Of a stretch of DNA of 37,310 nt, positions 6,355 through 37,310 are shown piece after piece; within the stretch, counting starts at the first letter, position 1; every line of letters begins with the position of its first letter. Location of the stretch: positions 1-37,310 of the forward strand of contig NZ_AKKF01000034.1 of NCBI RefSeq assembly GCF_000281955.1, given 5' to 3'. Under the pieces are notes generated by a model that made no database searches, had not been told where the DNA came from, and was given only the letters and a program-made list of their open reading frames with translations. This stretch comes from Caulobacter sp. AP07. GTDB taxonomy: Bacteria > Pseudomonadota > Alphaproteobacteria > Caulobacterales > Caulobacteraceae. Both the position numbers and the translations under genes were made by a program.

Positions 6355-6391
6355 CGCCCGGCGACGTCTGTGTGGCAGACGTCGCCGGGCG
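6355..6391 (-). terminator. Strong hairpin after the GH51 gene
   Basis: A perfect 16-bp stem (6355-6370 with 6376-6391) closes a 5-base loop, about 35 bases beyond the GH51 stop. A second GC-rich hairpin (GCCGCCTGCGGCGGC) lies between them. There is no clear T-run, so it may act as a weak or Rho-assisted terminator or as 3'-end protection. Confidence 0.6.
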
Positions 6392-6425
6392 TCGCCGCCT
6401 GCGGCGGCGGCGAAGGGGTGACGAT

Positions 6426-7985
6426 CTATTCGACCGCGACAACCACGACCGACTTGGCCGGAATGTCGAGAGTGAGCTTGTCGCCGACCAGACGCCCGCC
6501 CTTGTAGGGAACCGGAGCGACGACGGGTTTGGCGCCAAAGGCGTTGAACGCGTCCATCTTGTCGGCGGTCAGGAGCTGGCCCGAAACAGATCTGGCCTTG
6601 AGTCCGCCGAGCGACACGCTGAGCTTAATGCTGTCGTCCGGCGACATGTTGGCCACGCCGATATAGGTCTTTCCGTCCTTGCCCTTGGCGGCCGAGGCGT
6701 TGAACGCCGGAATGGTCGTGGCGCCGATGGTGATCTTGGGCGCCTGCACCTCAAGCGGCACGGCCGTGGCGTCCTGGAACGGCGTGTACATCTTGAACGC
6801 GTAGTAGGTCGGCGTCAGGACGATCTGGTCGCCCTTGGTCAGGATCATCGCCTGCAGGACGTTGATGGTCTGGGCGATGTTGGTCATTTTCACACGGTCA
6901 GTGTGATGATGGAAAATATTGAAGTTCGCCGCCGCCAACACGCCGTCGCGAAGGGTGTTGAGCTGATAGAGGTGGCCGGGATTGGTGCCCGGCTCGACGT
7001 CGTACCAAGTGCCCCATTCGTCGACGAAGAGACCGATGCGCTTGTCCGGATCGTTCTTGTCGAGCACGGCGATGTGCTGGGTAAGCAGGTCCTCCATCCG
7101 CAAGGTCTGCGCAAAGGTTTGGCCCCAGGCGGCCTTGTCGAAGCCGGTGGCGGCGCCCTTCTTGTCCCATTTGCCGGTCGGCAGCGTGTAGTAGTGCAGC
7201 GAGATCGCGTCCATGAACCGGCCGGCGTTCTTGGTCACCACGTCAGTCCAATTGGTGTCGAAGGCGTTGGCTCCCGAGCCGACGCGCACGGCCGGATTGT
7301 CGTTGTTCTTGTGGAAGAACGCCGAGAAGCGACGATACTCATTGGCATAGTATTCCGGGGTCATCTCGCCGCCGCAGCCCCAGCTTTCGTTGCCGATGCC
7401 GATGAACGGCACCTTGAACGGCTTGTCGCGACCGTTGGCGCGCCGCTCCTGGGCCAGGGTGTCGTCGCCCGGCGAGGTCATGTACTCGATCCACTCGCGC
7501 ATCTCGGTCGGATCGGACGAGCCGACATTGATCGAGAGGTAGGGGTCCGCGCCGACCTGTTCGGCGAAGTCCATGAATTCGTGGGTGCCGAACGCATTGC
7601 TCTCGGGCGAGCCGCCCCACCAGTTGTTCTTGCGCGAAGGACGCTTGGAGCGCTCGCCGACGCCGTCGCGCCAACGATATTCGTCGGCGAAGCAGCCGCC
7701 GGGCCAGCGGATCACCGGAACCTTGAGATCCTTGAGGGCGCCGACCACATCGCTACGGATGCCGCGAACGTTGGGAATCTTCGAGTCCGGCCCGACCCAG
7801 ACGCCGTCATAGACGCCCGCGCCCAGGTGCTCGGAAAACTGTCCGTAGACGTAGCGGGAAATCGGCGCGCCGGGCTGGTCGGCTTTCAACGCCGCCGTGG
7901 CGGCCAGTTCGGCGGCTTGCGCGTTCGTCGCTATCGCCAGGAGCGCGATCGCCGCCGCGCCCAGGATTGTCTTGGCCTTCGCCAT
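6426..7985 (-). CDS. GH51 alpha-L-arabinofuranosidase, secreted
   Basis: A 519-residue GH51 enzyme that removes terminal alpha-L-arabinofuranosyl units from arabinan, arabinoxylan or arabinogalactan. A Sec signal peptide (about residues 1-25, ending NAQA) points to the periplasm or outside. The family block VIRWPGGCFADEYRWRDGVG is at 91-110, the acid/base Glu is in IGNES (Glu200), and the nucleophile Glu is in FVDEWGTW (Glu323). The ATG at 7985 follows GGAAGAG. It is divergent from a sugar MFS transporter, with a GntR-type palindrome in the shared intergenic region. The L-arabinose released would feed the oxidative pathway encoded downstream. Confidence 0.95.
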   Translation of the reverse strand: MAKAKTILGAAAIALLAIATNAQAAELAATAALKADQPGAPISRYVYGQFSEHLGAGVYDGVWVGPDSKIPNVRGIRSDVVGALKDLKVPVIRWPGGCFADEYRWRDGVGERSKRPSRKNNWWGGSPESNAFGTHEFMDFAEQVGADPYLSINVGSSDPTEMREWIEYMTSPGDDTLAQERRANGRDKPFKVPFIGIGNESWGCGGEMTPEYYANEYRRFSAFFHKNNDNPAVRVGSGANAFDTNWTDVVTKNAGRFMDAISLHYYTLPTGKWDKKGAATGFDKAAWGQTFAQTLRMEDLLTQHIAVLDKNDPDKRIGLFVDEWGTWYDVEPGTNPGHLYQLNTLRDGVLAAANFNIFHHHTDRVKMTNIAQTINVLQAMILTKGDQIVLTPTYYAFKMYTPFQDATAVPLEVQAPKITIGATTIPAFNASAAKGKDGKTYIGVANMSPDDSIKLSVSLGGLKARSVSGQLLTADKMDAFNAFGAKPVVAPVPYKGGRLVGDKLTLDIPAKSVVVVAVE

Positions 7986-8090
7986 GTTCTCTTCCCCAAT
8001 TGCTCTCGCGGGTGATCGCCCTCCGGGCTTCTCACCGTCCCCAGATTGCTGCGCGAGGCTTCACGATGTGACTTGGTAGCAGGCTTAGTT

Positions 8091-8101
8091 TTGTCCTACA
8101 A
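8091..8101 (-). promoter_or_regulatory. Putative GntR (FCD) operator at the GH51 promoter
   Basis: TTGTCCTACAA fits T-N-GT-NNN-AC-N-A exactly. On the minus strand it begins at the third base of a -10-like TATTGT, the same geometry as at other sites in this window. The -35 is not evident. Confidence 0.6.
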
Positions 8102-8198
8102 TAACCAAGAACCACGTGATATTCCGAAGCCGCGCGGCCTTTCACACGCCCGGTTGTGGGTTTTAACTCCCTTGGTATCCGCCTCAGCGCCGCATGCG

Positions 8199-8232
8199 TT
8201 GACGCAACGACGCAGACGATATACTCGGACAA
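8199..8232 (+). promoter_or_regulatory. MFS transporter promoter with overlapping operator
   Basis: TTGACGC (8199-8205), 12 bases, then GATATACT (8218-8225) fits the Caulobacter housekeeping promoter pattern. The palindrome TACTCGGACAA (8222-8232), with one mismatch to T-N-GT-NNN-AC-N-A, begins inside the -10, so binding there would block RNA polymerase. Confidence 0.6.
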
Positions 8233-8294: not shown

Positions 8295-9596
8295 ATGCCC
8301 GCCATTCCGCAAAGCGCGCCGACCGTAGCCACCGACACCCCGCAACAGCGCCACGGCTCGGCCTTGAGCCTGCTGGCCAGCCTGTTCTTCATGTGGGGCT
8401 TCATCACGGTCATCAACAACACGCTGCTGCCGCATCTGCGCAGCGTTTTCGTGCTGGATTACACCCGCACGACCCTGATCGAGTCGGTCTGGTTCATCGC
8501 CTATTTCGTGGCCTCGATCCCCTCGGCCAAGCTGATCGAGCGGATCGGCTACCAGAAGGCGATCGTCATCGGTCTACTGGGCATGGCGGTCGGAGCGGCC
8601 ATGATGGTCCCGGCGGCCATCCTCACTTCCTACGCCCTGGTGCTGACGGCGCTGTTCGTGATCGCCAGCGGCATCACCCTGCTGCAGGTGGCGGCCAATC
8701 CCTATGTGGCGGTGCTCGGTCCGCCCGAGACCGGCTCCTCGCGCCTGAACCTGGTACAGGCGTTCAACTCGCTGGGCACCACCCTGGCCCCGCTGTTCGC
8801 CGGCTACCTGATCCTGGGCCGCTCCAAGAGCGGCACGGCCCAGGCCGGCGTCGCCCTGACCGCCGCCGAGCGCCACGCCGACGCCCAGTCGGTGATCCTG
8901 CCCTACGTCATCGTCGCGATCGCGCTCGTGTTGCTGGCCCTGGTCATGGGTCGCGTCCGCCTGCCGACCATCGGCCAGGCGACCCAGCGCGCGTCGCGCG
9001 AGGCTCGCAAGGGCCTGTCCCTCTGGACGCACCGCAACCTGGTCTGGGGCGTGCCGGCGATCTTCATCTACCTGATCGCCGAAATCGGCGTGGCCAACCT
9101 TTTCATCAATTTCGTTTCGCAGCCGAACATCGCCGCGATCACCCACGAAGAAGCCTCGCGCTATTTGGCCATCCTGTGGGGCGGCATGATGGTCGGCCGC
9201 TTCCTGGGCAGCGTGCTGATGCGCCGCTTCACCGCCGAACACGTTCTGGCCGCCTTCTCGATCGGCGCCTTCGTGGTGATGCTGATCACCACCTTCGCCC
9301 ACGGCCCGGTGGCCATGTGGTCGCTGATCGCGGTCGGGTTCTTCCATTCGATCATGTTCCCGACCATCTTCACCCTGGGCATCCGCGGCCTGGGGCCGCT
9401 GACCGAGGAAGGCTCGGGCCTGCTGATCATGGCCATCGCCGGCGGCGCCCTGGTCATCGTCCAGGGCTGGCTGGCCGACACCTTCGGCCTGCAGTGGTCG
9501 TTCCTGCTGACGGCGGCCTGCGAGGTCTACGTGCTGTTCTACGCCCTGTGGGGCTCCAGGCCCACCAACGCCCTCCCCGACCAGCACGTCGACTAG
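8295..9596 (+). CDS. MFS sugar transporter, FucP/GluP-like
   Basis: A 433-residue major-facilitator protein with about 12 hydrophobic segments. The N-terminal block FFMWGFITVINNTLLPHLRS and the following YTRTTLIESVWFIAYF are characteristic of the L-fucose:H+ symporter / glucose-galactose transporter group of the inner membrane. FucP-type carriers also accept galactose and arabinose, whose ring stereochemistry is close to fucose. AGAGGAAACG lies directly before the ATG. It is divergent from the GH51 gene and carries the same operator type as the arabinose-pathway genes, so uptake of L-arabinose or D-galactose is the likely role. Confidence 0.88.
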   Translation: MPAIPQSAPTVATDTPQQRHGSALSLLASLFFMWGFITVINNTLLPHLRSVFVLDYTRTTLIESVWFIAYFVASIPSAKLIERIGYQKAIVIGLLGMAVGAAMMVPAAILTSYALVLTALFVIASGITLLQVAANPYVAVLGPPETGSSRLNLVQAFNSLGTTLAPLFAGYLILGRSKSGTAQAGVALTAAERHADAQSVILPYVIVAIALVLLALVMGRVRLPTIGQATQRASREARKGLSLWTHRNLVWGVPAIFIYLIAEIGVANLFINFVSQPNIAAITHEEASRYLAILWGGMMVGRFLGSVLMRRFTAEHVLAAFSIGAFVVMLITTFAHGPVAMWSLIAVGFFHSIMFPTIFTLGIRGLGPLTEEGSGLLIMAIAGGALVIVQGWLADTFGLQWSFLLTAACEVYVLFYALWGSRPTNALPDQHVD

Positions 9597-10168: not shown

Positions 10169-11971
10169 CTAGTGGTTGTCGCGCGGCAGGCCCTTGGTCT
10201 GGGCGATGCGCTGGTACTTGACCGCCGGCTCCAGCACCGCCCCGGTCTCCATCTGGCCGACAATAGCGCGCTGGATCTCCTGCCAAGGCGTCTGGCTCTC
10301 TGGATAGACGAAGCCGCCAGCCGCATCGAGCGCCGCGCGTCGGGCGACGATCTCCTCGGGGGTGATCAGCACGTCGACCCGCGACTTGCGCAGGTCGACG
10401 CGGACCCGGTCGCCGGACTTCAGCAGCGCCAGCCCGCCGCCGGCGGCGGCCTCCGGCGAGGCGTTGAGAATCGACGGCGAGCCCGAGGTGCCCGACTGCC
10501 GCCCGTCACCCAGGCAGGGCAACTGGTGGATCCCCTGCTTGATCAGATAATCCGGGGCTCGCATGTTCACGACCTCGGCCGCGCCTGGATAACCGATCGG
10601 CCCGGCCCCGCGCATGAACAGCACGCTGCGCTCGGTGATGCCGACCGACGGGTCGTCGATCCGGCGGTGGTAGTCCTCGGGCCCGTCGAACACCACCGCA
10701 TCGCCTTCGAAGGCGTCCGGGTCGTTCGGATCGGAAAGATAGCGGTCGCGGAACTCGGCGGTGATCACGCTGGTCTTCATGATCGCCGAATTGAACAGGT
10801 TGCCGCGCATGACCACGAAGCCGGCGCGCTCGACCAATGGCTTGTCGAAGGGACGGATCACCGCCTCGTCCTCGATCACCGCGCCGCGGCAGGCGTCGCC
10901 CAGGCTCTGGCCGGAAACGGTCAGCGCGCCCTCGCGGATCAGGCCCTGGGTCATCAGCTGGTTGACCACGGCCGGCACGCCGCCGGCCCGGTAATAGTCC
11001 TCGCCCAGATACTCACCGGCCGGCTGCAGGTTCACGAGCAGGGGCACTTCCTCGCCATGGGTCTGCCAGTCGTCCACCGTCAGCTCGACACCGATGTGGC
11101 GGGCCAGGGCGTTGAGATGGATGGGGGCGTTGGTCGAGCCCCCGATCGCCGAATTGACGACCACGGCGTTGAGGAAGGCGTCGCGGGTCAGGATGTCGGA
11201 CGGCTTGATGTCCTGCTCGACCAGATCGACGATCCGCAAGCCGGTCTCATAGGCGTTCTGCTGCCGGTCGCGATAGGGTGCCGGGATGGCCGCCGAGCCG
11301 GTCAGCGACATGCCCAGCGCCTCGGTCAGCGAGTTCATGGTCGTGGCCGTGCCCATGGTGTTGCAATAGCCGGTCGAGGGGGCCGAGCTGGCGACCAGCT
11401 TGATGAAGCCGGCGCGGTCGATCTCGCCGGCCGCCAGCATCTCGCGAGCCCTCCAGACGATGGTGCCCGAGCCGGTGCGCTGGCCCTTGTGCCAGCCGTT
11501 CAGCATGGGCCCCACGGACAGGGCGATGGCCGGGATATTGACCGTGGCGGCGGCCATCAGGCAGGCCGGGGTGGTCTTGTCGCAGCCGATGGTCAGGACG
11601 ACGCCGTCGATCGGATAGCCGTAGAGCGTTTCGACCAGACCCAGATAGGCGAGGTTGCGATCGAGCCCCGCGGTGGGTCGCTTGCCGGTTTCCTGGATCG
11701 GATGGACCGGAAACTCCAGGGCGATGCCGCCAGCGGTGCGGATGCCTTCCCGGACGCGCTCGGCCAGGACCAGGTGATGCCGGTTGCAGGGCGACAGGTC
11801 GCTGCCGGTCTGGGCGATGCCGATGATCGGGCGGCCCGACTGCAACTCTTCCAGCGACAGGCCGAAGTTCAGATAGCGCTCCAGATAGAGCGCCGTCATG
11901 TCGACGTTGTCCGGATTGTCGAACCAGGCGCGCGAACGAAGGGCGCGAGGCGGAACGGCGGCAGAGCTCAT
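10169..11971 (-). CDS. IlvD/Edd-family sugar-acid dehydratase (probable L-arabonate dehydratase)
   Basis: A 600-residue dehydratase with cluster-ligand cysteines in SPCNRHH (Cys62), TIGCDKTTP (Cys130) and GYCNTMGTA (Cys203), the set of [2Fe-2S] pentonate dehydratases. The first block ([20 protein letters not shown]) resembles the C. crescentus D-xylonate dehydratase as I recall it. Family substrates include L-arabonate, D-xylonate, D-fuconate and D-galactonate. The nearby AraD1-type and KGSA dehydrogenase genes favour L-arabonate, giving L-2-keto-3-deoxyarabonate. AAGGA precedes the ATG at 11971. Its promoter carries the GntR-type operator, divergent from the GH27 gene. Confidence 0.9.
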
Positions 11972-12200: not shown

Positions 12201-12221
12201 TAGGCAAACTTGGAGAGAATC

Positions 12222-13592
12222 ATGGGTTCGAAAAATCCAGCGGCGACGACGGAATTCCGCGCCCTTCGCCGGGCCCTGCTGGCCGCCGCAACCATCGCGC
12301 CCTGGCTGGGCGGGGCTGTCCAGGCCGCCGATTCCCTGGCCTTCCGCCGCCTGGCGCCGACACCGCCGATGGGCTGGAACAGCTGGGACAGCTTCGCCAC
12401 TACCCTGACGGAAGACCAGGCCATCGACAACGCCAAGGTGATGGCCAAGGTGCTGCTGCCGCACGGCTACGACGTCTTCACGGTCGACATCCAGTGGTAC
12501 GAGCCCGGCGCGGTCGGCTTCGACTATCGCCAAGACGCCAGCCTGGCCCTGGACCCGTGGGGCCGCCTGCTGCCGGCGGTCAACCGCTTCCCCTCGTCGG
12601 CCGACGGCGCGGGCTTCAAGCCGTTGGGCGACCGGCTGCACGCCCTGGGCCTGAAGTTCGGCATCCATCTGATGCGCGGCGTTCCCCGCCAGGCGGCCGA
12701 TCGCAACCTGCCGATCCTCGGCGCGTCCGCGCGCTGTGGCGACATCGCCGACCGCGCCAGCCTCTGCCCGTGGAATCCGGACATGTACGGGGTCGATATG
12801 AGCAAGCCCGGCGCTCAGGCCTATTACGACAGCGTCTTCAAGCTGCTGGCCGCCTGGGGCGTCGACTACGTCAAGGTCGACGACATGAGCCGGCCCTATC
12901 ACGACCACGCGCCAGAGATCGAGGCCGTGCGCAAGGCCATCGACGCCTGCGGCCGGCCGATGGTGCTCAGCCTATCCCCGGGCGAGACGCCGCTCGACGC
13001 CGCCGCTCACGTCCAACGCCATGCCAACCTCTGGCGGATCAGCGATGACTTCTGGGATCAGTGGCCGCTGCTGCTGGAGCAGTTCGGGCGGCTCGAACGC
13101 TGGAACCCGCACCGCGTTCCCGGCTGCTGGCCCGACGCCGACATGCTGCCGCTGGGCGTGCTGGACCTGGGCAAGCGCACGACCCGGTTCACGCCCGACG
13201 AGCAGCGCACCATGATGACCTTGTGGTCGATCGCCCGCTCGCCGCTGATCATGGGCGGCGACCTGCGCAAGCTGGATCCGGCCACCAAGGCGTTGCTGAC
13301 CAACGACGAAGTGCTGGCGGTGAACCAGCGCAGCAGCGGCAACCGGCCGCTGTTCAATCGCGATGGCTTGATCGCCTGGACGGCGGAGGTTCCCGGATCA
13401 CGCGCCTGCTACCTGGCGCTGTTCAATACCCGGGACGTCGCGGCGACGGTGTCGGTGGACTTGGCGACGCTGGGCGTGAAGGGGCGTGTGCGGGTGCGAG
13501 ACCTCTGGGCGCGCAAGGATGAAGGCGAGACGACTTTGCGACTTGAACGCGCCTTGCCCGCCCATGGCGCGGGGTTGTATCGCCTCGGCTAG
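12222..13592 (+). CDS. GH27 glycosidase (alpha-galactosidase or beta-L-arabinopyranosidase-like), secreted
   Basis: A 456-residue GH27 protein. The N-terminal hydrophobic segment ending AVQAA (about residue 36) suggests a signal peptide. TPPMGWNSWDSF at about 47-58 is the family hallmark. YVKVDDMS holds the probable nucleophile Asp220, and WRISDDFWDQW the probable acid/base Asp276. The DDCW substrate-binding block of classical alpha-galactosidases reads DIQW here (Asp89-Trp92), and the CEW block is replaced by SPGE (252-255), so specificity may differ. The ATG at 12222 is chosen because GGAGAG lies just upstream; a TTG at 12210 is unlikely. It sits divergent from the arabonate dehydratase and beneath the same operator type, pointing to arabinose- or galactose-containing glycans. 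Confidence 0.88.
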   Translation: MGSKNPAATTEFRALRRALLAAATIAPWLGGAVQAADSLAFRRLAPTPPMGWNSWDSFATTLTEDQAIDNAKVMAKVLLPHGYDVFTVDIQWYEPGAVGFDYRQDASLALDPWGRLLPAVNRFPSSADGAGFKPLGDRLHALGLKFGIHLMRGVPRQAADRNLPILGASARCGDIADRASLCPWNPDMYGVDMSKPGAQAYYDSVFKLLAAWGVDYVKVDDMSRPYHDHAPEIEAVRKAIDACGRPMVLSLSPGETPLDAAAHVQRHANLWRISDDFWDQWPLLLEQFGRLERWNPHRVPGCWPDADMLPLGVLDLGKRTTRFTPDEQRTMMTLWSIARSPLIMGGDLRKLDPATKALLTNDEVLAVNQRSSGNRPLFNRDGLIAWTAEVPGSRACYLALFNTRDVAATVSVDLATLGVKGRVRVRDLWARKDEGETTLRLERALPAHGAGLYRLG

Positions 13593-16737: not shown

Positions 16738-16750
16738 AGCGAGCCTACCG

Positions 16751-20726: not shown

Positions 20727-23972
<3,246 letters not shown>

Positions 23973-28835: not shown

Positions 28836-30406
28836 AGGCGGCTCTTCTCGGCGCCCTGTGCGCTTCCTTCCTGCTCGGCGCATCGGCGCTGGCTCAGGAC
28901 GGCTTGACCACCGCCGCCGACGGCAAGCCACGCCTCATGGTCGACGGAAAGCCGTTCCTGGTGCTCGGCGTCCAGCTCAACAACTCAAGCGGCTACCCGG
29001 CCGTCCTGCATGCGCTCGGATCGGCGATCGAGGGCAGCCATGCCAACACCGTGATGGCGCCGATCGGCTGGGAGTCGATCGAACCAGTCGAGGGGCGTTA
29101 CGACTTTTCGCTGATCGACGGACTTGTCGCCGAAGCCCGCACCCAGAAGGTCCGGCTGGCGCTATTGTGGTTCGGCTCGTGGAAGAACGGCGCGATGAGC
29201 TACACGCCGGCCTGGGTCAAGCGCGACACCGTGCGCTTTCCGCGAGTGATGACGCGCGAAGGCCGAGCGATCGAGGCCCTCAGTCCCATTGGAACGGCCG
29301 GCCGGGACGCCGATGCGCGCGCCTTCGGCGCCGTGATGGCCCATCTCAAGGCCATCGACGGCAAGCAGAAGACCGTGATCATGGTCCAGGTCGAGAACGA
29401 AGCGGGCGTCTTGGGTTCCGATCGCGACTATTCGCCGACGGCCCAGGCTCTCTATGATGCGCCCGTGCCCGCCGACATGCCGGGAGCCCGGCCCGGCGGC
29501 TGGACGCAGAACTATGCCGATCGCGCTCCGGAGGCCTTCATGGCCTATCACACCGCCCGGTACGTCGGCGCGGTGGCCGCGGCGGGCAAGGCCGCCTACG
29601 ACCTGCCGCTCTATGTCAACGTCTGGCCGCGCGAACAGCCGGGGCTGGAGCGTCCAGGCGAGAGTTCGCCTTCCGGCGGCGCCGTCTCCTGGCTCCTGCC
29701 CCAATGGCGAGCTCTGGCCCCGGCGGTGGATATCGTCGGCGTCGACAACTACGACACCAATGTCGCACCCTACACCGCCATCGCCCGCGCTTACGACGTT
29801 CCCGGAAACCCGTTGTTCGTGCCCGAGACCGGCGGCAGCATGGCCCATGCCCGGCATGCTTTCTGGACGATCGCTCAGCCCCACGGCGTCGGGATCTCGA
29901 AATTCGGCCTGGATGCGCGGATCGGCCTCAAGGACGGCCGCGAGGCCGAGGAGCCCATGGCCACAACCTACCGCTTGCTGGGTCCAGCCGCTTCCGTGCT
30001 CCTGCCGCTGCGCGACGAAGGCAAGGTCGAGGTGGCCGTCGAAGAGGATGGATTGGCCAATATCCCCCTGCCCTTCTCCGCGGTCGACCTCGTCGCCCGG
30101 TTCGGTGAGGTGCGCGACGGCTACGGTGGTCCGCGCGGTCAGGGCAACAAGGACCTGTCGGGCCGGGTGCTCGTCGCCGAGGCCGCGCCGGACCGATTCT
30201 ATGTCACGGGGACCTCGGCCAATCTGAAGTTCTCCCCCAAACTGGGCCAGACTGGATCGGTCCAGCTGGTCACCGTCCAGGAGGGACGGTTTGAGGCCGG
30301 AGCCTGGATCGGCGAGCGGTTGCTCAACGGCGACGAAACCGCCTTCGGCCTGATCCTGCCCAAGGAGGGCCGGTCTTTGCTCGTCACCGTGCAGGTCAAT
30401 CCATGA
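28832..30406 (+). CDS. GH35 beta-galactosidase with DUF5597-like C-terminus, secreted
   Basis: A 524-residue glycosidase. The signal peptide (residues 1-21, ending ALAQ) fixes the start at 28832. The barrel begins MVDGKPFLVLGVQLNNSS. The acid/base is Glu190 in VQVENEAG and the nucleophile Glu332 in FVPETGG. About 180 residues follow the catalytic part, matching the DUF5597-type extension of bacterial GH35 proteins. It would remove beta-galactosyl residues. The last codons overlap the GH30 start by four bases (ATGA), so the two enzymes are translationally coupled. Control is probably through the palindrome at 28703. Confidence 0.88.
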   Translation: MKAALLGALCASFLLGASALAQDGLTTAADGKPRLMVDGKPFLVLGVQLNNSSGYPAVLHALGSAIEGSHANTVMAPIGWESIEPVEGRYDFSLIDGLVAEARTQKVRLALLWFGSWKNGAMSYTPAWVKRDTVRFPRVMTREGRAIEALSPIGTAGRDADARAFGAVMAHLKAIDGKQKTVIMVQVENEAGVLGSDRDYSPTAQALYDAPVPADMPGARPGGWTQNYADRAPEAFMAYHTARYVGAVAAAGKAAYDLPLYVNVWPREQPGLERPGESSPSGGAVSWLLPQWRALAPAVDIVGVDNYDTNVAPYTAIARAYDVPGNPLFVPETGGSMAHARHAFWTIAQPHGVGISKFGLDARIGLKDGREAEEPMATTYRLLGPAASVLLPLRDEGKVEVAVEEDGLANIPLPFSAVDLVARFGEVRDGYGGPRGQGNKDLSGRVLVAEAAPDRFYVTGTSANLKFSPKLGQTGSVQLVTVQEGRFEAGAWIGERLLNGDETAFGLILPKEGRSLLVTVQVNP

Positions 30407-31875
30407 TCCCCTCCCGTCGCGCCATGCTCGGCGCTGGTTTGGCCCTGGCCAGCGGAATCGGTGTCGCTGCGGCCGGGGCCGAACCGGAGGTGAGCGTCAG
30501 GCTCTCCCCCGCCTTCGATCGACCAGGCCCGGAATTCGAAGGTTGGGGCACGGCCCTGGCCTGGTTCGCCAATGTCAGCGGAAACTGGAATGAGCCGGTG
30601 CGCCAGCGCCTGGCCGATCTTCTGTACGGATCGGGCGGCCTGGGCTGGACCATCGGACGCTACAACATCGGCGGCGGCGCGCGTCCGGGGGCCGAGCCCG
30701 GCCTGCGACCCGGAGCCGCCGTGGAAGGCTTCTGGCGTCAACCCGAAGGGACAACGGGCGACGCCTGGTGGCGGCCCGAGGACGAGGCGATGTGGGATTG
30801 GTCGGCGGACGCCGGCCAGAGATGGTGGCTCGACGCCATCAAGGCGCGGGTGTCCGATCCGACCCTCGAGGCATTCTCCAATTCTCCACCCTGGTTCATG
30901 ACGGTCAGCGGCAAGGTCTCAGGCGCGCAAAGGGCGCTCGATGACAATCTGCGCCCCGGGCATGAAGCGCTGTTCGCCGCTTACCTGGCCCGCGTCGTCG
31001 ACGAGTTGCAACGCCGCCATGGCGTCGCCTTTCGCACCCTCTCGCCGGTCAACGAGCCCAATACCGACTACTGGTTCGCCGACAACCGACAGGAAGGCGC
31101 GCACTGGAGCCCGGCCCGCCAGGCGGCGATGTTCATCGCGGCGGACACCGCGCTCAGGGCGCGCGGACTTTCGACCCGCGTCAGTGGCCCCGATGAAACC
31201 AACTCCAGCACCTTCCTCGCCGACTGGGCCGAGTACCCGCCGGCCGCCCGGCGTGCGATAGGCCAGTTGAACGTCCACAGCTACGGAACGGTCAACCAGA
31301 CCGGCGTGCGCGATGTCGCTCGAGCTTCCGGCGTTCGCCTTTGGATGTCGGAGGACGACACGCCGATGGACAAGGACCCGGAGAATTTCGACAGCGTGTC
31401 CTCGGCGCTCGCCCTGGCCGAGCACATTGTCCTGGACCTCAAGCGCCTGGAACCCTCCGCCTGGGTGTTCTGGCAGGCGGTCGAGGATCTCAGCGCCCGC
31501 AACGGCGGCGCCGGGTCCAATTGGGGGCTGATCAAGGCGGATCTGACCCAGCCGCCGGCGGGTCCGCAGGACCTTCATGTGACGTCCAAATACTGGGCGA
31601 TGGCCCAGTTCAGCCGCTTCATCCGGCCGGGCTACCGCCTGATCTTCGTCGATGACATCGACACGGTTGGCGCGCTGTCGCCTAACGGCCAGGAACTGGT
31701 GCTGGTGCACGTGAATGGCGGCCTGTCGGCGCGCCGCCTCGTGACGCCGCCCGGCTGGACCGGCCGGGCCGTGGTGTCCGACGCCGCTCGGCATGCCGAA
31801 CCAAGCGCGCGGCTTGTCGCCCCCCCTCGTTCCGTGACCACCCTGGTGATGCGAAAGACGGCGGCGAAGCGATAG
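30403..31875 (+). CDS. GH30 glycosidase (candidate endo-beta-1,6-galactanase), secreted
   Basis: A 490-residue GH30-type enzyme. The N-terminus (SRRAMLGAGLALA...) resembles a signal with a twin-arginine-like motif. FEGWGTALAWFANVSGNW at about 45-62 is typical of GH30 proteins such as endo-beta-1,6-galactanases (GH30_5). The acid/base is Glu218 (SPVNEPN) and the probable nucleophile Glu317 (WMSEDD). A beta-sandwich C-terminal domain follows. GH30_5 enzymes cut the beta-1,6-galactan side chains of arabinogalactan proteins. The subfamily is inferred from this block and from the partners (GH35 overlapping, GH2, GH43, GH51), and other GH30 activities such as beta-glucosidase or xylanase cannot be excluded. 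Confidence 0.82.
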   Translation: MIPSRRAMLGAGLALASGIGVAAAGAEPEVSVRLSPAFDRPGPEFEGWGTALAWFANVSGNWNEPVRQRLADLLYGSGGLGWTIGRYNIGGGARPGAEPGLRPGAAVEGFWRQPEGTTGDAWWRPEDEAMWDWSADAGQRWWLDAIKARVSDPTLEAFSNSPPWFMTVSGKVSGAQRALDDNLRPGHEALFAAYLARVVDELQRRHGVAFRTLSPVNEPNTDYWFADNRQEGAHWSPARQAAMFIAADTALRARGLSTRVSGPDETNSSTFLADWAEYPPAARRAIGQLNVHSYGTVNQTGVRDVARASGVRLWMSEDDTPMDKDPENFDSVSSALALAEHIVLDLKRLEPSAWVFWQAVEDLSARNGGAGSNWGLIKADLTQPPAGPQDLHVTSKYWAMAQFSRFIRPGYRLIFVDDIDTVGALSPNGQELVLVHVNGGLSARRLVTPPGWTGRAVVSDAARHAEPSARLVAPPRSVTTLVMRKTAAKR

Positions 31876-32011: not shown

Positions 32012-33460
32012 TTAAAGCGCCGCGCTTTCCTGATGAACGAGAGGGGCATCGACACCGTGCCCCAGGAGGCTCGCACGGCGGCTATAGGCCAGATAGACCA
32101 CCAGGCCGATGAGGTTCCAGACCACGAACCGGATCAGCGTGGCGGACGGCAGGCTGATCATGAAATAGAGGCAACCGACGACCGCCAGCGGGCCGACGAT
32201 CCACACCGCCGGGCAACGGAACAGTCGCGGCAGGTCCGGCCGACGCACGCGCAGCACCATCAGGCACACCGCCACGCAGATGAAGGCCAGCAGGGTGCCG
32301 GCATTGGACAGCTCGGCGATCTGGTCCAGCGGCAGGAACCCGCCGACCAGCGCCACGACCGCCCCGGTGATCAGAGTCAGGGTGACCGGCGCGCCGGTCT
32401 TGGCATGTAGCCGGCCCAGGCCGCGCGGCAGGAGGCCGTCCCGCGCCATGACGAAGAACACCCGGGTCTGACCGAACATCATCACCAGGATGACGCTGGG
32501 CAGGGCGATGATGGCGGCGGCGGCGATGCCGAAGGCGGCGGCCGGGTGGCCCAGGCCGCGCAGGATGAAGGCCAGCGGCTCCCCCGAACGGGCGAACTCG
32601 GCATAGGGCCAGGCCCCCACCGCGCAGGCGGCGACCACCATGTAGATCAGGGTGCAGATCACCATCGAGCCGATGATGCCGATGGTCAGGTCGCGCTTGG
32701 GATTCTTGACCTCCTCGGCCGAGGTCGAGACCGCGTCGAAGCCGAAGAAGGCGAAGAACACGATGGCGGCGGCGGCCATCACGCCGCGCGGATGGCCCGC
32801 CTCGGTGTGGGCGGCGAAGCCATAGGGCATGAACGGCGTGAAGTTGTGCCCCTTGATGGCCGTGAAGGTCAGGCCGACGAAGACGGCCAGGGCGACGATC
32901 TTGATCACCACCAGGCCAATGTTGAGCGTGGCGCTCTCGCGCGCGCCTTTCGCCAGCAGGGCGGTGACGGCGGCGGTGATCAGCACGGCCGGCAGATTGA
33001 TGACCCCGCCGGCGTGCGGCCCGGCCAGGATCTGCGGCGGCAGGTGAATCCCGACGCTCTGGAGCAGGCCGACCATGTAGCCCGACCAGCCGACGGCCAC
33101 GGCCGCGCAGGTGACGGCGTACTCCAGCACCAGACTCCAGCCGACGATCCAGGCCAGGCCCTCGCCCAGCACCGCATAGGCGTAGGTATAGGCGCTGCCA
33201 GCGGCTGGGATCAGGGTCGCGACCTCGGCATAGGCCAGGGCGGCGAACACGCACAGGACGCCGCAGGCGGCGAAGGCCAGGATCACCGCTGGCCCCGCCC
33301 GCTCGGCGCCGATGCCGGTCAGGGTGTAGATCCCCGTGCCGATGATGGCTCCGATACCCAGGGCCAGCAGGTGCGGCCAGGACAGGGTCGGCTTCAGCCG
33401 ACGGTCGGCCTCCACCGAGACGATCGCGTCGAGCGCCTTGCGACGGGTCCAGAAGTTCAT
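32012..33460 (-). CDS. APC-superfamily amino-acid permease (cationic amino-acid transporter type)
   Basis: A 482-residue inner-membrane permease with about 12 hydrophobic segments. LALGIGAIIGTGIYTLTGIGA and FFAFFGFDAVSTSAEEVKNPKRD are the APC signatures of the CAT/YfnA group. The ATG at 33460 is chosen because GGGG lies just upstream; a TTG at 33514 is less likely. It is the last gene of the flavoprotein-peptidase-permease run, 100 bases after the peptidase, so import of hydroxyproline or proline-like amino acids is a reasonable guess, not shown by the sequence. Confidence 0.9.
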   Translation of the reverse strand: MNFWTRRKALDAIVSVEADRRLKPTLSWPHLLALGIGAIIGTGIYTLTGIGAERAGPAVILAFAACGVLCVFAALAYAEVATLIPAAGSAYTYAYAVLGEGLAWIVGWSLVLEYAVTCAAVAVGWSGYMVGLLQSVGIHLPPQILAGPHAGGVINLPAVLITAAVTALLAKGARESATLNIGLVVIKIVALAVFVGLTFTAIKGHNFTPFMPYGFAAHTEAGHPRGVMAAAAIVFFAFFGFDAVSTSAEEVKNPKRDLTIGIIGSMVICTLIYMVVAACAVGAWPYAEFARSGEPLAFILRGLGHPAAAFGIAAAAIIALPSVILVMMFGQTRVFFVMARDGLLPRGLGRLHAKTGAPVTLTLITGAVVALVGGFLPLDQIAELSNAGTLLAFICVAVCLMVLRVRRPDLPRLFRCPAVWIVGPLAVVGCLYFMISLPSATLIRFVVWNLIGLVVYLAYSRRASLLGHGVDAPLVHQESAAL

Positions 33461-33560
33461 GCGATTACCCCCAAAGGTGGTCTTTGACGGACCGGAAACG
33501 ACCGGCCGGGACAATGTGAAAAATGTGCTCGCGAACGCCCCCTATCGGGGTTCGCAGGCG

Positions 33561-34769
33561 TCACGACGGACCGAACGGCGCGTCGATCGAGGGCGAGGGC
33601 TCGGTGAACCAGGCCGCACCATCCTCGGTGACGTGGAAATGGTCCTCCAGCCGCACGCCGAAGCGGTCGGGCACGACGATCATCGGCTCGTTGGAAAAGC
33701 ACATGCCCGGCGCCAGGGGCGTGCGGTCGCCGCGCACCAGATAGGGACCCTCGTGGATCGACAGGCCGATGCCGTGACCGGTGCGATGCGGCAGGCCCGG
33801 CAACGCGTAGTCGGGACCCAGGCCGTAGCGCTGCAACACCTGGCGCGCCGCCGCGTCGATCGCTTCGCAGGGCAGGCCCGGGCGGACCGCGGCGAAGGCG
33901 GCGGCCTGAGCCTCGTGCTCGATGTCCCAGATCCGCCGATGCTCGTCGCCCGGTTCGCCGAACACATAGGTGCGGGTGATGTCGGCGTTGTAGCCCTCGA
34001 CCTGGCAGCCGGTGTCGATCAGCACCAACTCGCCCTCCCCCAGCGCCTGGTCGCCGGGCAGACCATGCGGGTAGGCGGTGGCGCGGTCGAACTGCACAGC
34101 GCAGAAGGTCGAACCGCCGTCGGCGCCCGCGGCGCGGTGGGCGGTGTCGATGAACCGCTTGACGGCGCTGGCGGCGATGCCTGGCGCGAGCATGGCGGCG
34201 GCGCGACGGTGGACATCCAGGGTGATGGCCTTGGCATAGCGCATCAGGGCCAGTTCCGCCGGCGACTTGAGGGCGCGGCAGCCGTCGATGACCGGGGCGG
34301 CGTCCAGAGCGCGCAAGGACGGCGCCGTCTTTTCCAGAGCGGAGAACAATGAGAACGGCGCGGCCGGATCGAGCGCCAGGACGTCAGCGCCGATCTCGGA
34401 GAGCGCCTGGGCCACCAGGGCGGCCGGACTGTCGTGCTCCTGCCAGAGGCGGATGTCGGCCTCGATCTTCAGGTCGGCCCGCAGCGAGCCCAGCTCGAAG
34501 GCCGGGCAGATCATGACCGGCCTCCCCTTGCGCGGCAGCAGCAACGCCACCAGCCGTTCGGTCGCGCCCCACGGCACGCCGGTGAAATAGCGCAGGCTTG
34601 TCCCCGCCCCGACCAGAAGCGCGTCGGCGCCCAGCGCCGCGGTCAGGACTCGCGCCCGCTCCAGTCGCGCCTCGTATTCGACGACGGCGATGGCCGGCGG
34701 TCGCCCGGGCCGAGGTGACAATCCCGCCAATTGCAGGTCCATGGTCGAGCCACCGACGCCGTGGGTCAT
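33561..34769 (-). CDS. M24-family Xaa-Pro dipeptidase/aminopeptidase
   Basis: A 402-residue metallopeptidase with the creatinase-type N-domain and the pita-bread C-domain. All five metal ligands are visible: Asp252 and Asp263 (LIDTGCQVEGYNADITRTY), His332 (HRTGHGIGLSIHEGP), Glu361 (CFSNEPM) and Glu375 (VRLEDHF). It hydrolyses peptides with proline, and possibly hydroxyproline, at the second position. No signal peptide is present, so it acts in the cytoplasm. Its ATG overlaps the flavoprotein stop by four bases (ATGA), so the two are translationally coupled, a strong hint that peptide cleavage supplies the imino acid to that enzyme's pathway. Confidence 0.92.
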   Translation of the reverse strand: MTHGVGGSTMDLQLAGLSPRPGRPPAIAVVEYEARLERARVLTAALGADALLVGAGTSLRYFTGVPWGATERLVALLLPRKGRPVMICPAFELGSLRADLKIEADIRLWQEHDSPAALVAQALSEIGADVLALDPAAPFSLFSALEKTAPSLRALDAAPVIDGCRALKSPAELALMRYAKAITLDVHRRAAAMLAPGIAASAVKRFIDTAHRAAGADGGSTFCAVQFDRATAYPHGLPGDQALGEGELVLIDTGCQVEGYNADITRTYVFGEPGDEHRRIWDIEHEAQAAAFAAVRPGLPCEAIDAAARQVLQRYGLGPDYALPGLPHRTGHGIGLSIHEGPYLVRGDRTPLAPGMCFSNEPMIVVPDRFGVRLEDHFHVTEDGAAWFTEPSPSIDAPFGPS

Positions 34770-36043
34770 GCCGCGTTCCTCTTTCGTAGGTCGGACGGTC
34801 GCGCGAACCGCTCCAGATCAAGGGGGATCAGATCGACCGCCGGGATCGCTCGGCCCATCAGGGCGGCGACCCATTCGCTGGTCACCGCCGCCAAGGTCAG
34901 GCCCAGATGCTGGTGGCCGAAGGCGTAGTAAAGATTGTCGGCCCGCCGGCTGACGCCGATGGCGGGAAGATAGTCAGGCAAGGTCGGTCGAGCGCCCATC
35001 CATTCAGCGATCGGGCCCTCCATCCGCACCCCCAGCTCGGAAAGATGGCGACGCAGGCGCGACCATTTACGGGGATCGGGCGGCGACGATTCGCGGCCGA
35101 ATTCGACGAAGCTGGCGGCCCGCAACCGGTCGCCGAAACGCGTGAGGATCAGCGAGCGATCCTCGAACACGACGGGCGGCAGGTCACCCCAGCGCCCCGC
35201 GCCGCCTTCGAGATGGTAGCCGCGCTCGGCGATCACCGGCGCGACGTGGCCAAGGTCGCGCATCAACGCGCCGGAACCCACGCCGCCCGCGACCAGCACG
35301 CGCTCCGGCGCCAGCCGCTCGCCGTCCTCGAGCAGGACCTCGACACGCCCCTCGATGTTCAACAGTCGCACGGCACGACCGATCCGCCGCTGGCCGCCCA
35401 GGGCCGCGAAGGCCTCGTCCAACAATCGCAGGACCAGTGCCGGGTCGCGCACCTGGCCCGTGTTCTCGAACTGAGCGCCGCCAGCGATCGGGACGTCGAT
35501 CGACTGCCCCAGCCGTCGCGCCAGCGGATCGGACAGGGGTCGCAGCCTGGCCTGGCCGATATCAGCGGCGCGCCAGGCCTCAAGACCTGAGCGAGCGGTA
35601 TCCTGGCTCTCCCAGACCACGACGTGACCGCGCTCGATCAGCAGATCGGGCCGGTCGAGGGAAGCGGCCAGACGTCGCCAGGCTGGCAGGGCGTCCTGGA
35701 GCAGGTTGCTCAGCACCCGCTTGCCATGCGCCGCGCCCTCCGGAGTCGACGCCCTCATATAGCGCGCCGCCCAGGGGCCCCAGGCGGCGACGTCCGCCAA
35801 GCGGAAATCAAGCGCGCCCCCCAGCAGGAACAGACGGCCAAAAGCCGAGGCCAGGGCGGCAGGCGAAGCCAGGGGCTCCACCTGCTCGACCGCGATGTGG
35901 CCCGCGTTGCCGTAGGAGGCGGGACGTGACAGGCTTTGCGGATCGAGCAGCAGCACCGTTTCGCCGGCGCGACGCAAGGCCAGGGCGCAGGCCTTTCCGA
36001 CCACCCCGCCCCCGATCACCAATGTTCCCGCCGCCTGTCCCAC
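34766..36043 (-). CDS. FAD-dependent D-amino-acid dehydrogenase-like (candidate D-hydroxyproline dehydrogenase)
   Basis: A 425-residue flavoprotein of the DAO/DadA family. The FAD-binding motif GGGVVG is at 11-16 and the C-terminal block YYAFGHQHLGLTLAAVT matches the family. It oxidises D-amino or imino acids and passes electrons to the membrane chain or oxygen. Beside a DHDPS-family deaminase and a proline-racemase-family epimerase, the most likely substrate is cis-4-hydroxy-D-proline, giving 1-pyrroline-4-hydroxy-2-carboxylate. The GTG start at 36043 has GGAGG upstream. It leads the minus-strand operon with the M24 peptidase and the permease, and is divergent from the deaminase. Confidence 0.85.
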   Translation of the reverse strand: MGQAAGTLVIGGGVVGKACALALRRAGETVLLLDPQSLSRPASYGNAGHIAVEQVEPLASPAALASAFGRLFLLGGALDFRLADVAAWGPWAARYMRASTPEGAAHGKRVLSNLLQDALPAWRRLAASLDRPDLLIERGHVVVWESQDTARSGLEAWRAADIGQARLRPLSDPLARRLGQSIDVPIAGGAQFENTGQVRDPALVLRLLDEAFAALGGQRRIGRAVRLLNIEGRVEVLLEDGERLAPERVLVAGGVGSGALMRDLGHVAPVIAERGYHLEGGAGRWGDLPPVVFEDRSLILTRFGDRLRAASFVEFGRESSPPDPRKWSRLRRHLSELGVRMEGPIAEWMGARPTLPDYLPAIGVSRRADNLYYAFGHQHLGLTLAAVTSEWVAALMGRAIPAVDLIPLDLERFARPSDLRKRNAA

Positions 36044-36068
36044 CTGGGCTTTACCTCCGCTTCGCCAT

Positions 36069-36087
36069 TTCGTATACCGTAGACGAA
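36069..36087. promoter_or_regulatory. 19-bp palindromic operator between hydroxyproline operons
   Basis: TTCGTATACCGTAGACGAA: two 9-base arms with one mismatch around a central C. It lies 25 bases from the flavoprotein start and 21 bases from the deaminase start, so one regulator could control both directions. It is distinct from the TTGTC-type sites elsewhere in the window. The regulator gene is not in view. Confidence 0.6.
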
Positions 36088-36108
36088 GCAGTTAGAGGTG
36101 CAAGTCGT

Positions 36109-37026
36109 ATGAGCTCCATGAATTGGTCGGGCGTGTTCCCGGCCGCCACCACCCAGTTCAACACCGACCTTTCGATCGACATCGACGCCAGCCAGCAGGT
36201 GCTCGACGCCTTGGTTCGCGACGGCGTACACGGTCTCGTGGTGCTGGGCACCTGCGGCGAGAACAATTCGCTCGAAGCCGACGAAAAGCGCCAGGTGCTG
36301 CAGGCGGCCGTCGAGGTGGTGGCTGGCCGAGTGCCGATCATCGTCGGGGTCTCGGAGTTGACCACGCCGCGCGCCGCCGCCTTCGCCAAGAGCGCAGAAT
36401 CTATCGGCGCCGACGCGCTGATGGTCTTGCCCGCCATGGTCTACGTGCCGACCGAGGCCGAGCTCGTGGCCCACTTCCGCACGGTCGCCCAAGCCTCCGC
36501 CCTGCCGATCATGCTCTACAACAATCCTCCGGCCTATCGCGCCGCCATCACCCTGGACGTGCTGGCCCGCCTTGCTGAAGAGCCGACCATCGTGGCGGTC
36601 AAGGAAAGCGCGCCCGACACCCGCCGCTTCACCGATCTGGCCCGGGCCTTTGGCGAGCGCTTCATCCTGATGGCCGGCCTCGACGACGTCGCCCTCGAAG
36701 GCCTGCTCATGGGCGCCCGCGGCTGGGTCTCCGGCCTGACCAGCGCCTTCCCGCAGGAATCGGTGGCCCTGGTCGCCGCCGTCGATCGCGGCGACCTGGA
36801 AGAAGCGCGCCGCATCTATCGCTGGTTCATGCCGCTTCTGCACCTGGACGCCGAACACGACCTGGTGCAGTCGATTAAGCTGGCCGAACAGATCATGGGC
36901 CGTGGAACCGAGCGCGTGCGCATGCCCCGCCTGCCCTTGGCCGGCGCCCGCCGCGCCCAGGTCATCGCCATGGTCGAGGAAGCCGCCGCCACCCGACCGC
37001 TCCTCACCCCAGCTGTCGCGGCCTAA
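36109..37026 (+). CDS. DHDPS/NAL-family lyase (candidate 1-pyrroline-4-hydroxy-2-carboxylate deaminase)
   Basis: A 305-residue class I aldolase-type protein. GTCGEN (47-52) is the family substrate-binding loop. Tyr137 (MLYNNPP) and the Schiff-base Lys165 (IVAVKES) are in place. The family covers dihydrodipicolinate synthase, sialate lyase, sugar-acid aldolases and the hydroxyproline-pathway deaminase that makes alpha-ketoglutarate semialdehyde. The downstream epimerase and the divergent D-amino-acid dehydrogenase favour the last. AGAGG lies before the ATG at 36109 (a second ATG is nine bases on). A role in lysine synthesis is unlikely in this context. Confidence 0.83.
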   Translation: MSSMNWSGVFPAATTQFNTDLSIDIDASQQVLDALVRDGVHGLVVLGTCGENNSLEADEKRQVLQAAVEVVAGRVPIIVGVSELTTPRAAAFAKSAESIGADALMVLPAMVYVPTEAELVAHFRTVAQASALPIMLYNNPPAYRAAITLDVLARLAEEPTIVAVKESAPDTRRFTDLARAFGERFILMAGLDDVALEGLLMGARGWVSGLTSAFPQESVALVAAVDRGDLEEARRIYRWFMPLLHLDAEHDLVQSIKLAEQIMGRGTERVRMPRLPLAGARRAQVIAMVEEAAATRPLLTPAVAA

Positions 37027-37049
37027 GGCGAGAGGCCTAGAGGAAGTTC

Positions 37050-37310
37050 ATGCGTCACACATTCTTCTGCATCGACGGCCACACCGCGGGCAATCCGGTG
37101 CGCCTGGTGGTCGGCGGCGCCCCGCTGCTGCGCGGCGACACGATGAGCGCGCGACGCCAGGACTTCCTCGCCCGCTTCGACTGGATCCGCACCGGCCTGA
37201 TGTTCGAGCCGCGCGGCCACGACATGATGTCGGGCGGCTTCCTTTATCCGCCCACCCAGGCCGATTGCGACGCCGGCATCCTGTTCATCGAGACCAGCGG
37301 CTGGCTGCCG
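37050..37310 (+). CDS. Proline racemase / 4-hydroxyproline 2-epimerase family protein (3' part outside window)
   Basis: 87 residues are visible from an ATG at 37050 preceded by [25 protein letters not shown] and [22 protein letters not shown] are the N-terminal signature of the proline racemase superfamily, in particular the trans-4-hydroxy-L-proline 2-epimerases. The window ends at FIETSGWLP, where the catalytic MCGHG motif should follow at once. It is 23 bases behind the deaminase, so they are probably co-transcribed. It would convert trans-4-hydroxy-L-proline to cis-4-hydroxy-D-proline. Confidence 0.88.

Follow-up and report, generated by a model that had tools for sequence, protein, structure and literature searches.

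Glycosidase genes linked to hydroxyproline catabolism in Caulobacter: a candidate locus for plant hydroxyproline-rich glycoproteins

Introduction

The systems closest to the locus considered here are those by which bacteria act on the hydroxyproline (Hyp)-rich glycoproteins of plants, arabinogalactan proteins (AGPs) and extensins, and those for catabolism of trans-4-hydroxy-L-proline itself. The locus lies in a stretch of 37,310 nucleotides from Caulobacter sp. AP07 (hereafter the window), which is the entire contig C34; the genome measures 5.6 Mb and is assembled into 326 contigs. We consider it fairly probable that the window covers one module and half of another, both belonging to a locus for Hyp-rich plant glycoproteins, AGPs and probably extensins, with a glycan module at 6.4-31.9 kb and an adjoining Hyp module that starts at 32.0 kb and is cut at the contig end.

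In Xanthomonas euvesicatoria, XeHypAA, XeHypBA1 and XeHypBA2 comprise glycoside hydrolases (GH) of the GH43, GH121 and GH127/GH146 types that address Hyp-arabinosides, with a broken prolyl oligopeptidase gene alongside xehypAA (PMC6085000). The Caulobacter locus resembles this system in its GH43 and GH127/GH146-type enzymes for the arabinosides of Hyp-rich glycoproteins and in the neighbouring peptidase gene, but differs in possessing Hyp catabolism, receptors and several peptidases and, among the genes scanned, no GH121; the terms 'catabol', 'TonB' and '4-hydroxyproline' are absent from the main text of that source. Latescibacteria (WS3) have been predicted to degrade extensin, AGP and the peptide part, with GH127 for extensin, GH30 endo-beta-1,6-galactanase and GH2 for AGP and peptidases including S9 and M24 proposed within one genome (PMC4454575). 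This is, however, a genome-wide inventory, the main text of which contains neither the term 'gene cluster' nor, as far as available, a description of Hyp catabolism, whereas a linked locus with Hyp catabolism is found here. In Bifidobacterium longum, HypBA1, HypBA2, HypAA and the AGP clusters equally provide beta-L-arabinofuranosidases for extensin and AGP, and GH30_5 and GH43_24 galactanases accompany AGP enzymes (PMC10850190, PMC8939339, PMC7263609), but uptake proceeds by an ABC transporter, the enzymes are surface-anchored and the available text describes no hydroxyproline catabolism (PMC10850190, PMC8939339). The eating of both the glycan and the peptide parts is not a new idea; what differs is the linked locus with Hyp catabolism.

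Known trans-4-hydroxy-L-proline clusters combine an epimerase, a D-Hyp oxidase or dehydrogenase and a DapA-like deaminase. The same set is present here, but in none of the mapped Caulobacter loci does the Hyp block include a semialdehyde dehydrogenase of the type found in the window, and prolidase, peptidases and glycosidases are joined on. The polysaccharide utilization loci of Bacteroidota couple a TonB receptor with linked glycosidases, as does the present locus, which differs by the inclusion of amino-acid catabolism and in that no SusD-like protein was found, either among the 20 proteins scanned in the window (6426 to the contig end, compared with Pfam and NCBIfam) or among the scanned locus proteins of Caulobacter sp. 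Root655 (genome label G116; the window's own genome is G000). AGP loci of Bacteroides are mentioned in PMC8939339, and the word Caulobacter is absent from the available text of a review of type II arabinogalactan degradation (PMC8424115). No joint glycan-plus-Hyp locus was described by title or start of abstract in the literature searched, most subscription journals lying outside it, which is weak evidence of novelty. We read the locus as a variant of the TonB-dependent carbohydrate utilisation locus in which the hydroxyproline of the protein part would be catabolized as well.

Results

The hydroxyproline module and its continuation

The trio of the trans-4-Hyp pathway, epimerase, D-Hyp oxidase/dehydrogenase and DapA-like deaminase, occurs together at the family level in the window. 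The completeness of the locus cannot be judged from the window because the contig stops inside the 4-hydroxyproline epimerase gene. Two catalytic cysteines mark 4-Hyp epimerases in the proline racemase family; both motifs, MCGHGTI and SPCGTGT, are present in the Root655 ortholog, and in the window's gene their place lies past the contig end.

The Root655 contig begins at the dehydratase (window 10169) and from there keeps the gene order of the window except for a halogenase-like remnant. Past the epimerase it continues with a GntR/FCD regulator, a TonB receptor, GH27, GH43 with an F5/8-type domain, DUF885, an Ldh2-family protein, GH127, an S9 peptidase, DUF5695, a POT peptide permease, a small open reading frame (ORF) and a further TonB receptor. 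The window's end aligns to position 25763 of the Root655 contig and contig C62 of the window's genome starts at 26426, a gap of about 660 bp within the epimerase gene lying between them; C62 in turn abuts C15. Since these contigs are collinear with Root655, we infer the adjacency C34-C62-C15. Together, C62 and C15 carry S9, GH127, Ldh2, DUF885, GH43, GH27, TonB receptor, GntR, DUF5695, POT and h936 genes, 91-99% identical to those of Root655, with lower values for the small ORF h206 (55%) and for one Ldh2 piece of the two (86%).

Conservation of GH127 with the hydroxyproline genes

Linkage was followed in 75 Caulobacter genomes, in a family sample of 119 and in a class sample of 385 genomes. 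The 4-hydroxyproline epimerase (HypE), counted as present in the genus where PF05544 scored above its cut-off, is found in 21 Caulobacter genomes and GH127 orthologs of 59-100% identity in 14, all of which carry HypE as well. Both genes are at most 15 kb apart in all 12 genomes in which this is testable on one contig; in the other two, the window's own and G141, they are split across contigs. The Hyp-GH127 linkage is stable. Relatives with the same GH127 gene (79-100% identity) include Caulobacter sp. Root655, BK020, UNC279MFTsu5.1, Root343 and D5, C. hibisci and an uncultured Caulobacter metagenome-assembled genome (MAG). The prolidase accompanies the Hyp genes in 20 of 21 fetched genus loci (the stretch of G142 ended too early), a relative of the flavin adenine dinucleotide (FAD) oxidoreductase stands beside epimerase and deaminase in all 20 other loci fetched, and a DUF885 relative occurs in 18 of 21, the separate contigs of the window's genome and G141 counted.

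The survey outside the genus gave 457 GH127 relatives, of which the 80 best were examined (7 Caulobacter, 73 others, mostly Sphingomonas, Sphingobium and Novosphingobium, and including 5 Acidobacteria). Within 10 kb on each side (tblastn, E <= 1e-10, some matches being weak at 23-40% identity), these 80 loci show DUF885 in 72, Ldh2 in 64, DUF5695 in 64, the DapA-like deaminase in 51, HypE in 44, GH43 and S9 in 40 each, prolidase in 31, the APC permease in 29 and the FAD oxidoreductase (DAO) in 27. At least one of HypE, DapA and DAO is present in 54 loci, and in 50 of the 73 outside Caulobacter.

Among the five Acidobacteria, L128 (a MAG) and L156 (Granulicella paludicola) show HypE and DapA, and L155, L170 and L174 do not. 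By Pfam, L156 encodes HypE, DAO, a Pyr_redox/BFD protein, a DapA-like protein, a second distant GH127, DUF885, APC, GntR and S9, next to the matched GH127 and GH43, and its Hyp operon contains an aldehyde dehydrogenase of its own; L128 encodes HypE, DAO, Pyr_redox, a DapA-like protein, a second distant GH127 and GH43. The matched GH127 and GH43 are 62-73% alike to those of Root655 but HypE and DapA only 34-44% (34-43% in L156), so that the same functions were probably paired separately in Acidobacteria. In L128 the Hyp genes with two GH127 and GH43 adjoin ribonucleotide reductase and S-adenosylmethionine synthetase genes, probably a chromosomal setting.

Genes of arabinose oxidation surround GH127 in Sphingomonas Leaf412 (L126), S. 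hylomeconis and Sphingopyxis italica (L171), with Hyp genes also present in L126 and L171, and partial sets occur in L169 and L172. As a further tie between beta-arabinofuranosidase and pathway, a second GH127 paralog (47-48% identity) and GguC, a gene of arabinose oxidation, are separated by about 3 kb in G128, G129, G133 and G168.

Predicted roles of the enzymes

The structure model of DUF5695 (predicted local distance difference test, pLDDT, 82; predicted template modelling score, pTM, 0.85) combines a beta-sandwich with a helical barrel and has as its best structural match the polysaccharide lyase family 27 (PL27) enzyme BACCELL_00875 (E 1e-25; template modelling score 0.76-0.78 by target and 0.57-0.58 by query), the next other protein following at 3e-7. 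PL27 enzymes, L-rhamnose-alpha-1,4-D-glucuronate lyases (PDB 5no8), are reported to free rhamnose from gum arabic by beta-elimination (PMC8377490). The two differ in that DUF5695 is only 14-15% identical to PL27 and has no sequence match in the PDB at E <= 0.1. In the literature searched, one paper mentions DUF5695, in a fungal context.

DUF885 is likely a metallopeptidase for Hyp-peptides, because of its HE-x4-H motif and downstream Glu, invariant in 38 sequences, and of its context. Close Foldseek matches are structures of unnamed function, and M32 carboxypeptidases match only weakly (E 1e-3, template modelling score about 0.3, root-mean-square deviation 18). DUF885 relatives adjoin Hyp genes even where GH127 is lacking, as in G130, G156, G166 and G169. 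The Ldh2-family protein between GH127 and DUF885 resembles piperideine-2-carboxylate reductase (1wtj) in its N-terminal half.

Extensin carries galactose on Ser, and the GH27 of the Hyp module (GH27_H) is nearest to alpha-galactosidases. GH127 (PF07944, 1.2e-121; nearest structure 5opj) possesses E383-x-C385 and C453-C454, invariant in 8 sequences and spaced as E723/C725 and C804/C805 of Bll3HypBA1. GH127/GH146 enzymes act on beta-linked arabinofuranose of Hyp (Araf-beta-Hyp; PMC10850190, PMC6085000), and a bifidobacterial GH146 acts on AGP (PMC10850190). Gum arabic glycoprotein holds both extensin and AGP kinds of module, according to a reference title in PMC8939339.

In a search of the window's genome at E <= 1e-60, the aldehyde dehydrogenase of the window is the single match. 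None of its relatives adjoins the Hyp genes in any Caulobacter locus mapped, a result that covers this type of aldehyde dehydrogenase. Arabinose oxidation and Hyp catabolism both end in alpha-ketoglutarate semialdehyde, which makes it plausible that one semialdehyde dehydrogenase serves both pathways. Such sharing is not forced in general, since a second relative of 60-61% identity is encoded in 4 of 11 other genomes searched (Root655, G126, G091 and G082).

The glycan module of the window

All gene families named in the earlier note, a reading of the sequence alone, were recovered with Pfam and NCBIfam (Table 1). The N-termini of the GH51, GH27, GH43, GH2, GH35 and GH30 proteins resemble export signals by eye, and neither the GH35-like nor the GH2 protein reaches the cut-off of its best NCBIfam model. 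A GH30 unrelated to galactan, which by that note would have counted against its reading, is not what was observed: among solved structures the protein is nearest to 24td, a 'Secreted endo-beta-1,6-galactanase' (156 bits; next 3clw, 59.9 bits), and the side chains of type II arabinogalactan are beta-1,6-galactan (PMC3965541).

An oxidative, Weimberg-type set for L-arabinose is assembled in one block at the family level, with sugar dehydrogenase, arabonate dehydratase, semialdehyde dehydrogenase and the AraD1/GguC protein, which presumably performs the 2-keto-3-deoxy-L-arabonate step; the substrates are predicted. That of the dehydratase is no more than probable, because the L-arabinonate dehydratase model reaches 510.5 bits, below its cut-off of 882. 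No lactonase for the pathway was found among the 20 window proteins scanned. The halogenase-like gene between TonB receptor and GH2 seems dispensable to this block, as it is present in Root655 as a remnant only and was not found in the copies of G128 and G129. Window positions 1-6026 hold thiolase-, SDR-, DapB-, HxlR- and AMP-ligase-like genes, which by ORF reading resemble an unrelated block for lipid or aromatic-acid catabolism.

Table 1. Genes of the two modules, with positions in the window unless another contig is named, and the matches on which the names rest.
Product	Position	Strand	Support
GH51 alpha-L-arabinofuranosidase, probably exported	6426..7985	-	Alpha-L-AF_C PF06964 1.5e-45; NCBIfam ArfA 220 bits, cut-off 625
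GluP/FucP-type sugar symporter (MFS)	8295..9596	+	TIGR01272 296.5 bits, cut-off 202.55
IlvD/Edd dehydratase, probable L-arabonate dehydratase	10169..11971	-	NF009560 1038 bits, cut-off 684
GH27 (Melibiase_2)	12210..13592	+	PF16499 2.9e-28
GntR/FCD regulator, sugar side	13731..14612	-	PF07729, PF00392
AraD1/GguC family	14813..15808	+	NF040903 511 bits, cut-off 340
Gfo/Idh/MocA dehydrogenase, probable sugar 1-dehydrogenase	15805..16737	+	PF01408 7e-19
Aldehyde dehydrogenase, probable alpha-ketoglutarate semialdehyde dehydrogenase (predicted substrate)	16748..18283	+	PF00171; PDB 3v4c 534 bits
Aldose 1-epimerase, probably exported	18347..19501	+	PF01263 2.9e-94; N-terminus by eye
GH43, xylosidase/arabinofuranosidase type	19732..20655	-	PDB 8hcj 5e-58, 3qed 3e-54
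LacZ-type GH2 beta-galactosidase	20727..23963	-	PF02836 1.2e-89; NF052611 921.3 bits, cut-off 999
Tryptophan-halogenase-like flavoprotein (TrpHal), adjoins receptor	23995..25548	-	PF04820 1.9e-187
TonB-dependent receptor (TBDR), Xanthomonas/Caulobacter type	25613..28414	-	TIGR01782 641 bits, cut-off 310
GH35-family beta-galactosidase with DUF5597	28829 (approx.)..30406	+	NF051902 432.7 bits, cut-off 500; PF18120
GH30 (GH30_2), endo-beta-1,6-galactanase type	30403..31875	+	PF14587; PDB 24td 1.3e-44
APC amino-acid permease	32012..33514	-	PF13520
M24 prolidase (Xaa-Pro, putative Xaa-Hyp dipeptidase)	33561..34769	-	PDB 5cik/4r60/5cde 'Proline dipeptidase' 523-526 bits
FAD oxidoreductase (DAO), putative D-hydroxyproline dehydrogenase	34766..36043	-	PF01266 2.8e-41
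DapA-like (DHDPS-like), putative pyrroline-4-hydroxy-2-carboxylate deaminase	36097..37026	+	PF00701 3.2e-56
4-Hydroxyproline epimerase, 5' part only, truncated	37041..37310	+	NF010578 2.6e-46
DUF885	Root655 L070:13808-15595		
Ldh2-family protein	Root655 L070:15611-16642		
DUF5695	Root655 L071:1574-4342; C15:42160-44919		

The glycan module as partner of the hydroxyproline module

GH30_2 of the glycan module scores above its cut-off in 11 of the 75 Caulobacter genomes, a twelfth (G148) lying below it. HypE is present in 10 of these 11 and in 11 of the 64 genomes without GH30_2 (Fisher p 4e-6; p 0.0019 among the 31 genus genomes of at least 4.7 Mb; both uncorrected for kinship). In the family sample all six genomes with GH30_2 have HypE above cut-off, and in the class sample GH30_2 is confined to the window's own genome.

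In 5 of the 9 testable genus genomes GH30 and HypE are linked, in two of these by inference across contig ends; in G170, which has both, linkage is untestable. The window's genome and Root655 share a layout A with the glycan module on the permease side and 5.9 kb between GH30 and HypE. In layout B the genes GH2-TrpHal-TBDR-GH30 lie past the last TonB receptor, on one contig in G126, where GH30 and HypE are 34 kb apart in one locus, and by inference in G091, both contigs of which end inside GH2, and in G082, where one contig ends just past h936 and the other starts at POT. The remaining four keep the genes apart, by more than 1 Mb in G128, G129 and G138, the last with a complete Gfo-GH43-GH2-TrpHal-TBDR-GH30-GH35-GH51 block, and deep within different contigs in G133. 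Both family members outside the genus do likewise, G014 on different contigs and G114 at 348 kb. On this ground we reject the candidate reading in which the two blocks of the window form a fixed and conserved unit.

Trees were built from one to four proteins and 8 to 12 taxa, leaving aside genomes in which some protein was less than 80% covered in one piece (G091, G133 and G170 for GH2 and TBDR; G139, G170 and L118 for the Hyp genes, G142 being outside the taxon set). GH2 and TBDR of the window's genome are 89-90% identical to unlinked copies versus 84-85% to those of layout B; its Hyp block, after Root655, is nearest to layout B, with 91-92% versus 87-88% for G128, G129 and G133. Because the two blocks thus differ in their nearest relatives, two separate juxtapositions of glycan block and Hyp locus are suggested, a reading opposed by the GH30 tree, which puts layouts A and B together with a support of 0.84.

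Discussion

The explanation that we favour, one locus by which Hyp-rich plant glycoproteins are used, builds on the gene content, gene order, family membership and conserved linkage observed above. Exported GH30, GH2, GH35, GH51, GH43 and GH27 enzymes would trim type II arabinogalactan, the fragments of which would be imported by the TonB receptor and the MFS carrier, and arabinose would be oxidized via arabonate to alpha-ketoglutarate semialdehyde. In the glycoprotein module, from 32.0 kb to past the contig end, the PL27-like DUF5695, GH127, GH43 and GH27 may strip the Hyp-rich protein, which, once bared, the S9 and DUF885 peptidases would cleave. The peptide pieces would be taken in by the TonB receptor, the POT peptide permease and the APC permease, Hyp would be liberated by the prolidase, and epimerase, FAD oxidase and DapA-like deaminase would convert it to the same semialdehyde. 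The substrates, the export, the order of these reactions, the sharing of the dehydrogenase and any co-regulation of the modules are the parts that we infer.

A number of observations weigh against this explanation. GH30 and HypE are apart in the six genomes named above, 11 of the 21 genus genomes with HypE have no GH30_2, and each module has a GntR-type regulator of its own. The window's GH43, whose relation to galactan the earlier note had set as a check, is nearest to xylosidases and arabinofuranosidases and not to galactanases. No GH121 was found among the Root655 locus proteins scanned, the rest of the genome lying outside the search; the HypBA2 model matched no more than residues 393-526 in the module's GH43 (GH43_H), at 38.6 bits versus a cut-off of 3200. 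Seven of the 21 genus Hyp loci have no GH127, and 26 of the 80 GH127 loci, including three of the five Acidobacteria, show none of HypE, DapA and DAO in the stretch examined (L109 and L110 are counted here, the genes lying just past 10 kb). Class-wide, HypE is found at E <= 1e-50 in 92 genomes and GH127 above 200 bits in 9, and among the matches listed, which do not include three of the five HypE places of the GH127-bearing G217, GH127 is near HypE only in G509, besides the window's genome by inference. Hyp catabolism in general has other uses, and its pairing with GH127 is, judged from these genomes, a trait restricted to certain lineages. The Hyp branch could equally receive Hyp-containing peptides of other origin.

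The strongest competing explanation, which falls somewhat short of an even chance, is that two independent loci, one for arabinogalactan (6.4-31.9 kb) and one for hydroxyproline or extensin (32.0 kb onward), became neighbours by chance and are used separately. Each block does keep together without the other, as in G138, and GH30 and HypE are apart in G128, G129, G133, G014 and G114 as well; each block has its regulator and its TonB receptor to itself, and, as the GH30 tree allows, the two may have been juxtaposed once long ago and rearranged later. Mere chance accounts less well for a glycan block that flanks the Hyp locus on one side in layout A and on the other in layout B, for the diverging affinities of GH2 and TBDR and of the Hyp genes, which point to two juxtapositions, and for the co-occurrence of GH30_2 with HypE; in Sphingomonas sp. 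Leaf32 (L145), moreover, a TBDR-TrpHal-GH2 block with a distant GH43 adjoins GH127-Ldh2-DUF885-GH43, though without HypE, DapA or DAO in the stretch examined.

That the Hyp module serves extensins only, i.e. Hyp-arabinosides and Ser-galactose, with AGP left to the glycan module alone, we regard as unlikely, even if the activity of GH127/GH146 on Araf-beta-Hyp, the alpha-galactosidase affinity of GH27_H and the prolyl oligopeptidase gene adjoining xehypAA in Xanthomonas would fit it; the predicted fold of DUF5695, a family present in most GH127 loci, is like that of a gum-arabic lyase, a bifidobacterial GH146 works on AGP, and GH121 is missing from the genes scanned. Very improbable is a module using free Hyp or any Hyp peptides with the glycosidases as unrelated passengers. 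The seven Hyp loci without a GH127 ortholog, four of which retain DUF885, APC, M24, DAO, DapA and HypE (G130, G156, G166 and G169) and three of which are also without DUF885 (G056, G064 and G101), would be expected of it, but HypE accompanies every GH127 ortholog of the genus, in all testable cases at close distance, and two Acidobacteria join GH127 to unlike Hyp genes. The candidate in which Hyp genes and glycosidases have no functional tie whatever is rejected, from the GH127-HypE linkage in the genus, the 80 loci and the Acidobacteria.

Returning to one locus for Hyp-rich glycoproteins, the earlier note, which had joined glycan and Hyp blocks in a single locus and had proposed gene order in relatives as the check, is partly supported. 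The Hyp block is stably linked with GH127, GH43, GH27 and the PL27-like DUF5695 past the contig end, as the order in relatives bears out for GH127 and HypE; the GH30/GH2 block of the window is not a fixed partner, either in the genus or in the two further family members. The interpretation was right in kind and wrong on which glycosidases are the firm partners, its substrate and regulation being predictions. With a probability barely above even, a more general statement may be made, namely that bacteria possess a conserved class of loci for glycoprotein utilisation, by which plant Hyp-rich glycoproteins are eaten whole and in which DUF5695 as a new PL27-like lyase family, beta-arabinofuranosidases and galactanases would bare the protein, the metallopeptidase-like DUF885, S9 and M24 would cut the peptides, arabinose and Hyp would meet at alpha-ketoglutarate semialdehyde, and assembly would have occurred separately in Alphaproteobacteria and Acidobacteria.

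Hyp-rich glycoproteins are widespread in plant cell walls, and the literature searched says little on how bacteria use the protein core. A locus that would treat sugar and protein as one meal provides a testable genetic handle on this use, and roles are proposed for two families of unknown function, DUF5695 and DUF885. The shared end intermediate of the two pathways may be the metabolic reason why, in Caulobacter and Sphingomonadales, arabinose genes are paired with hydroxyproline genes.

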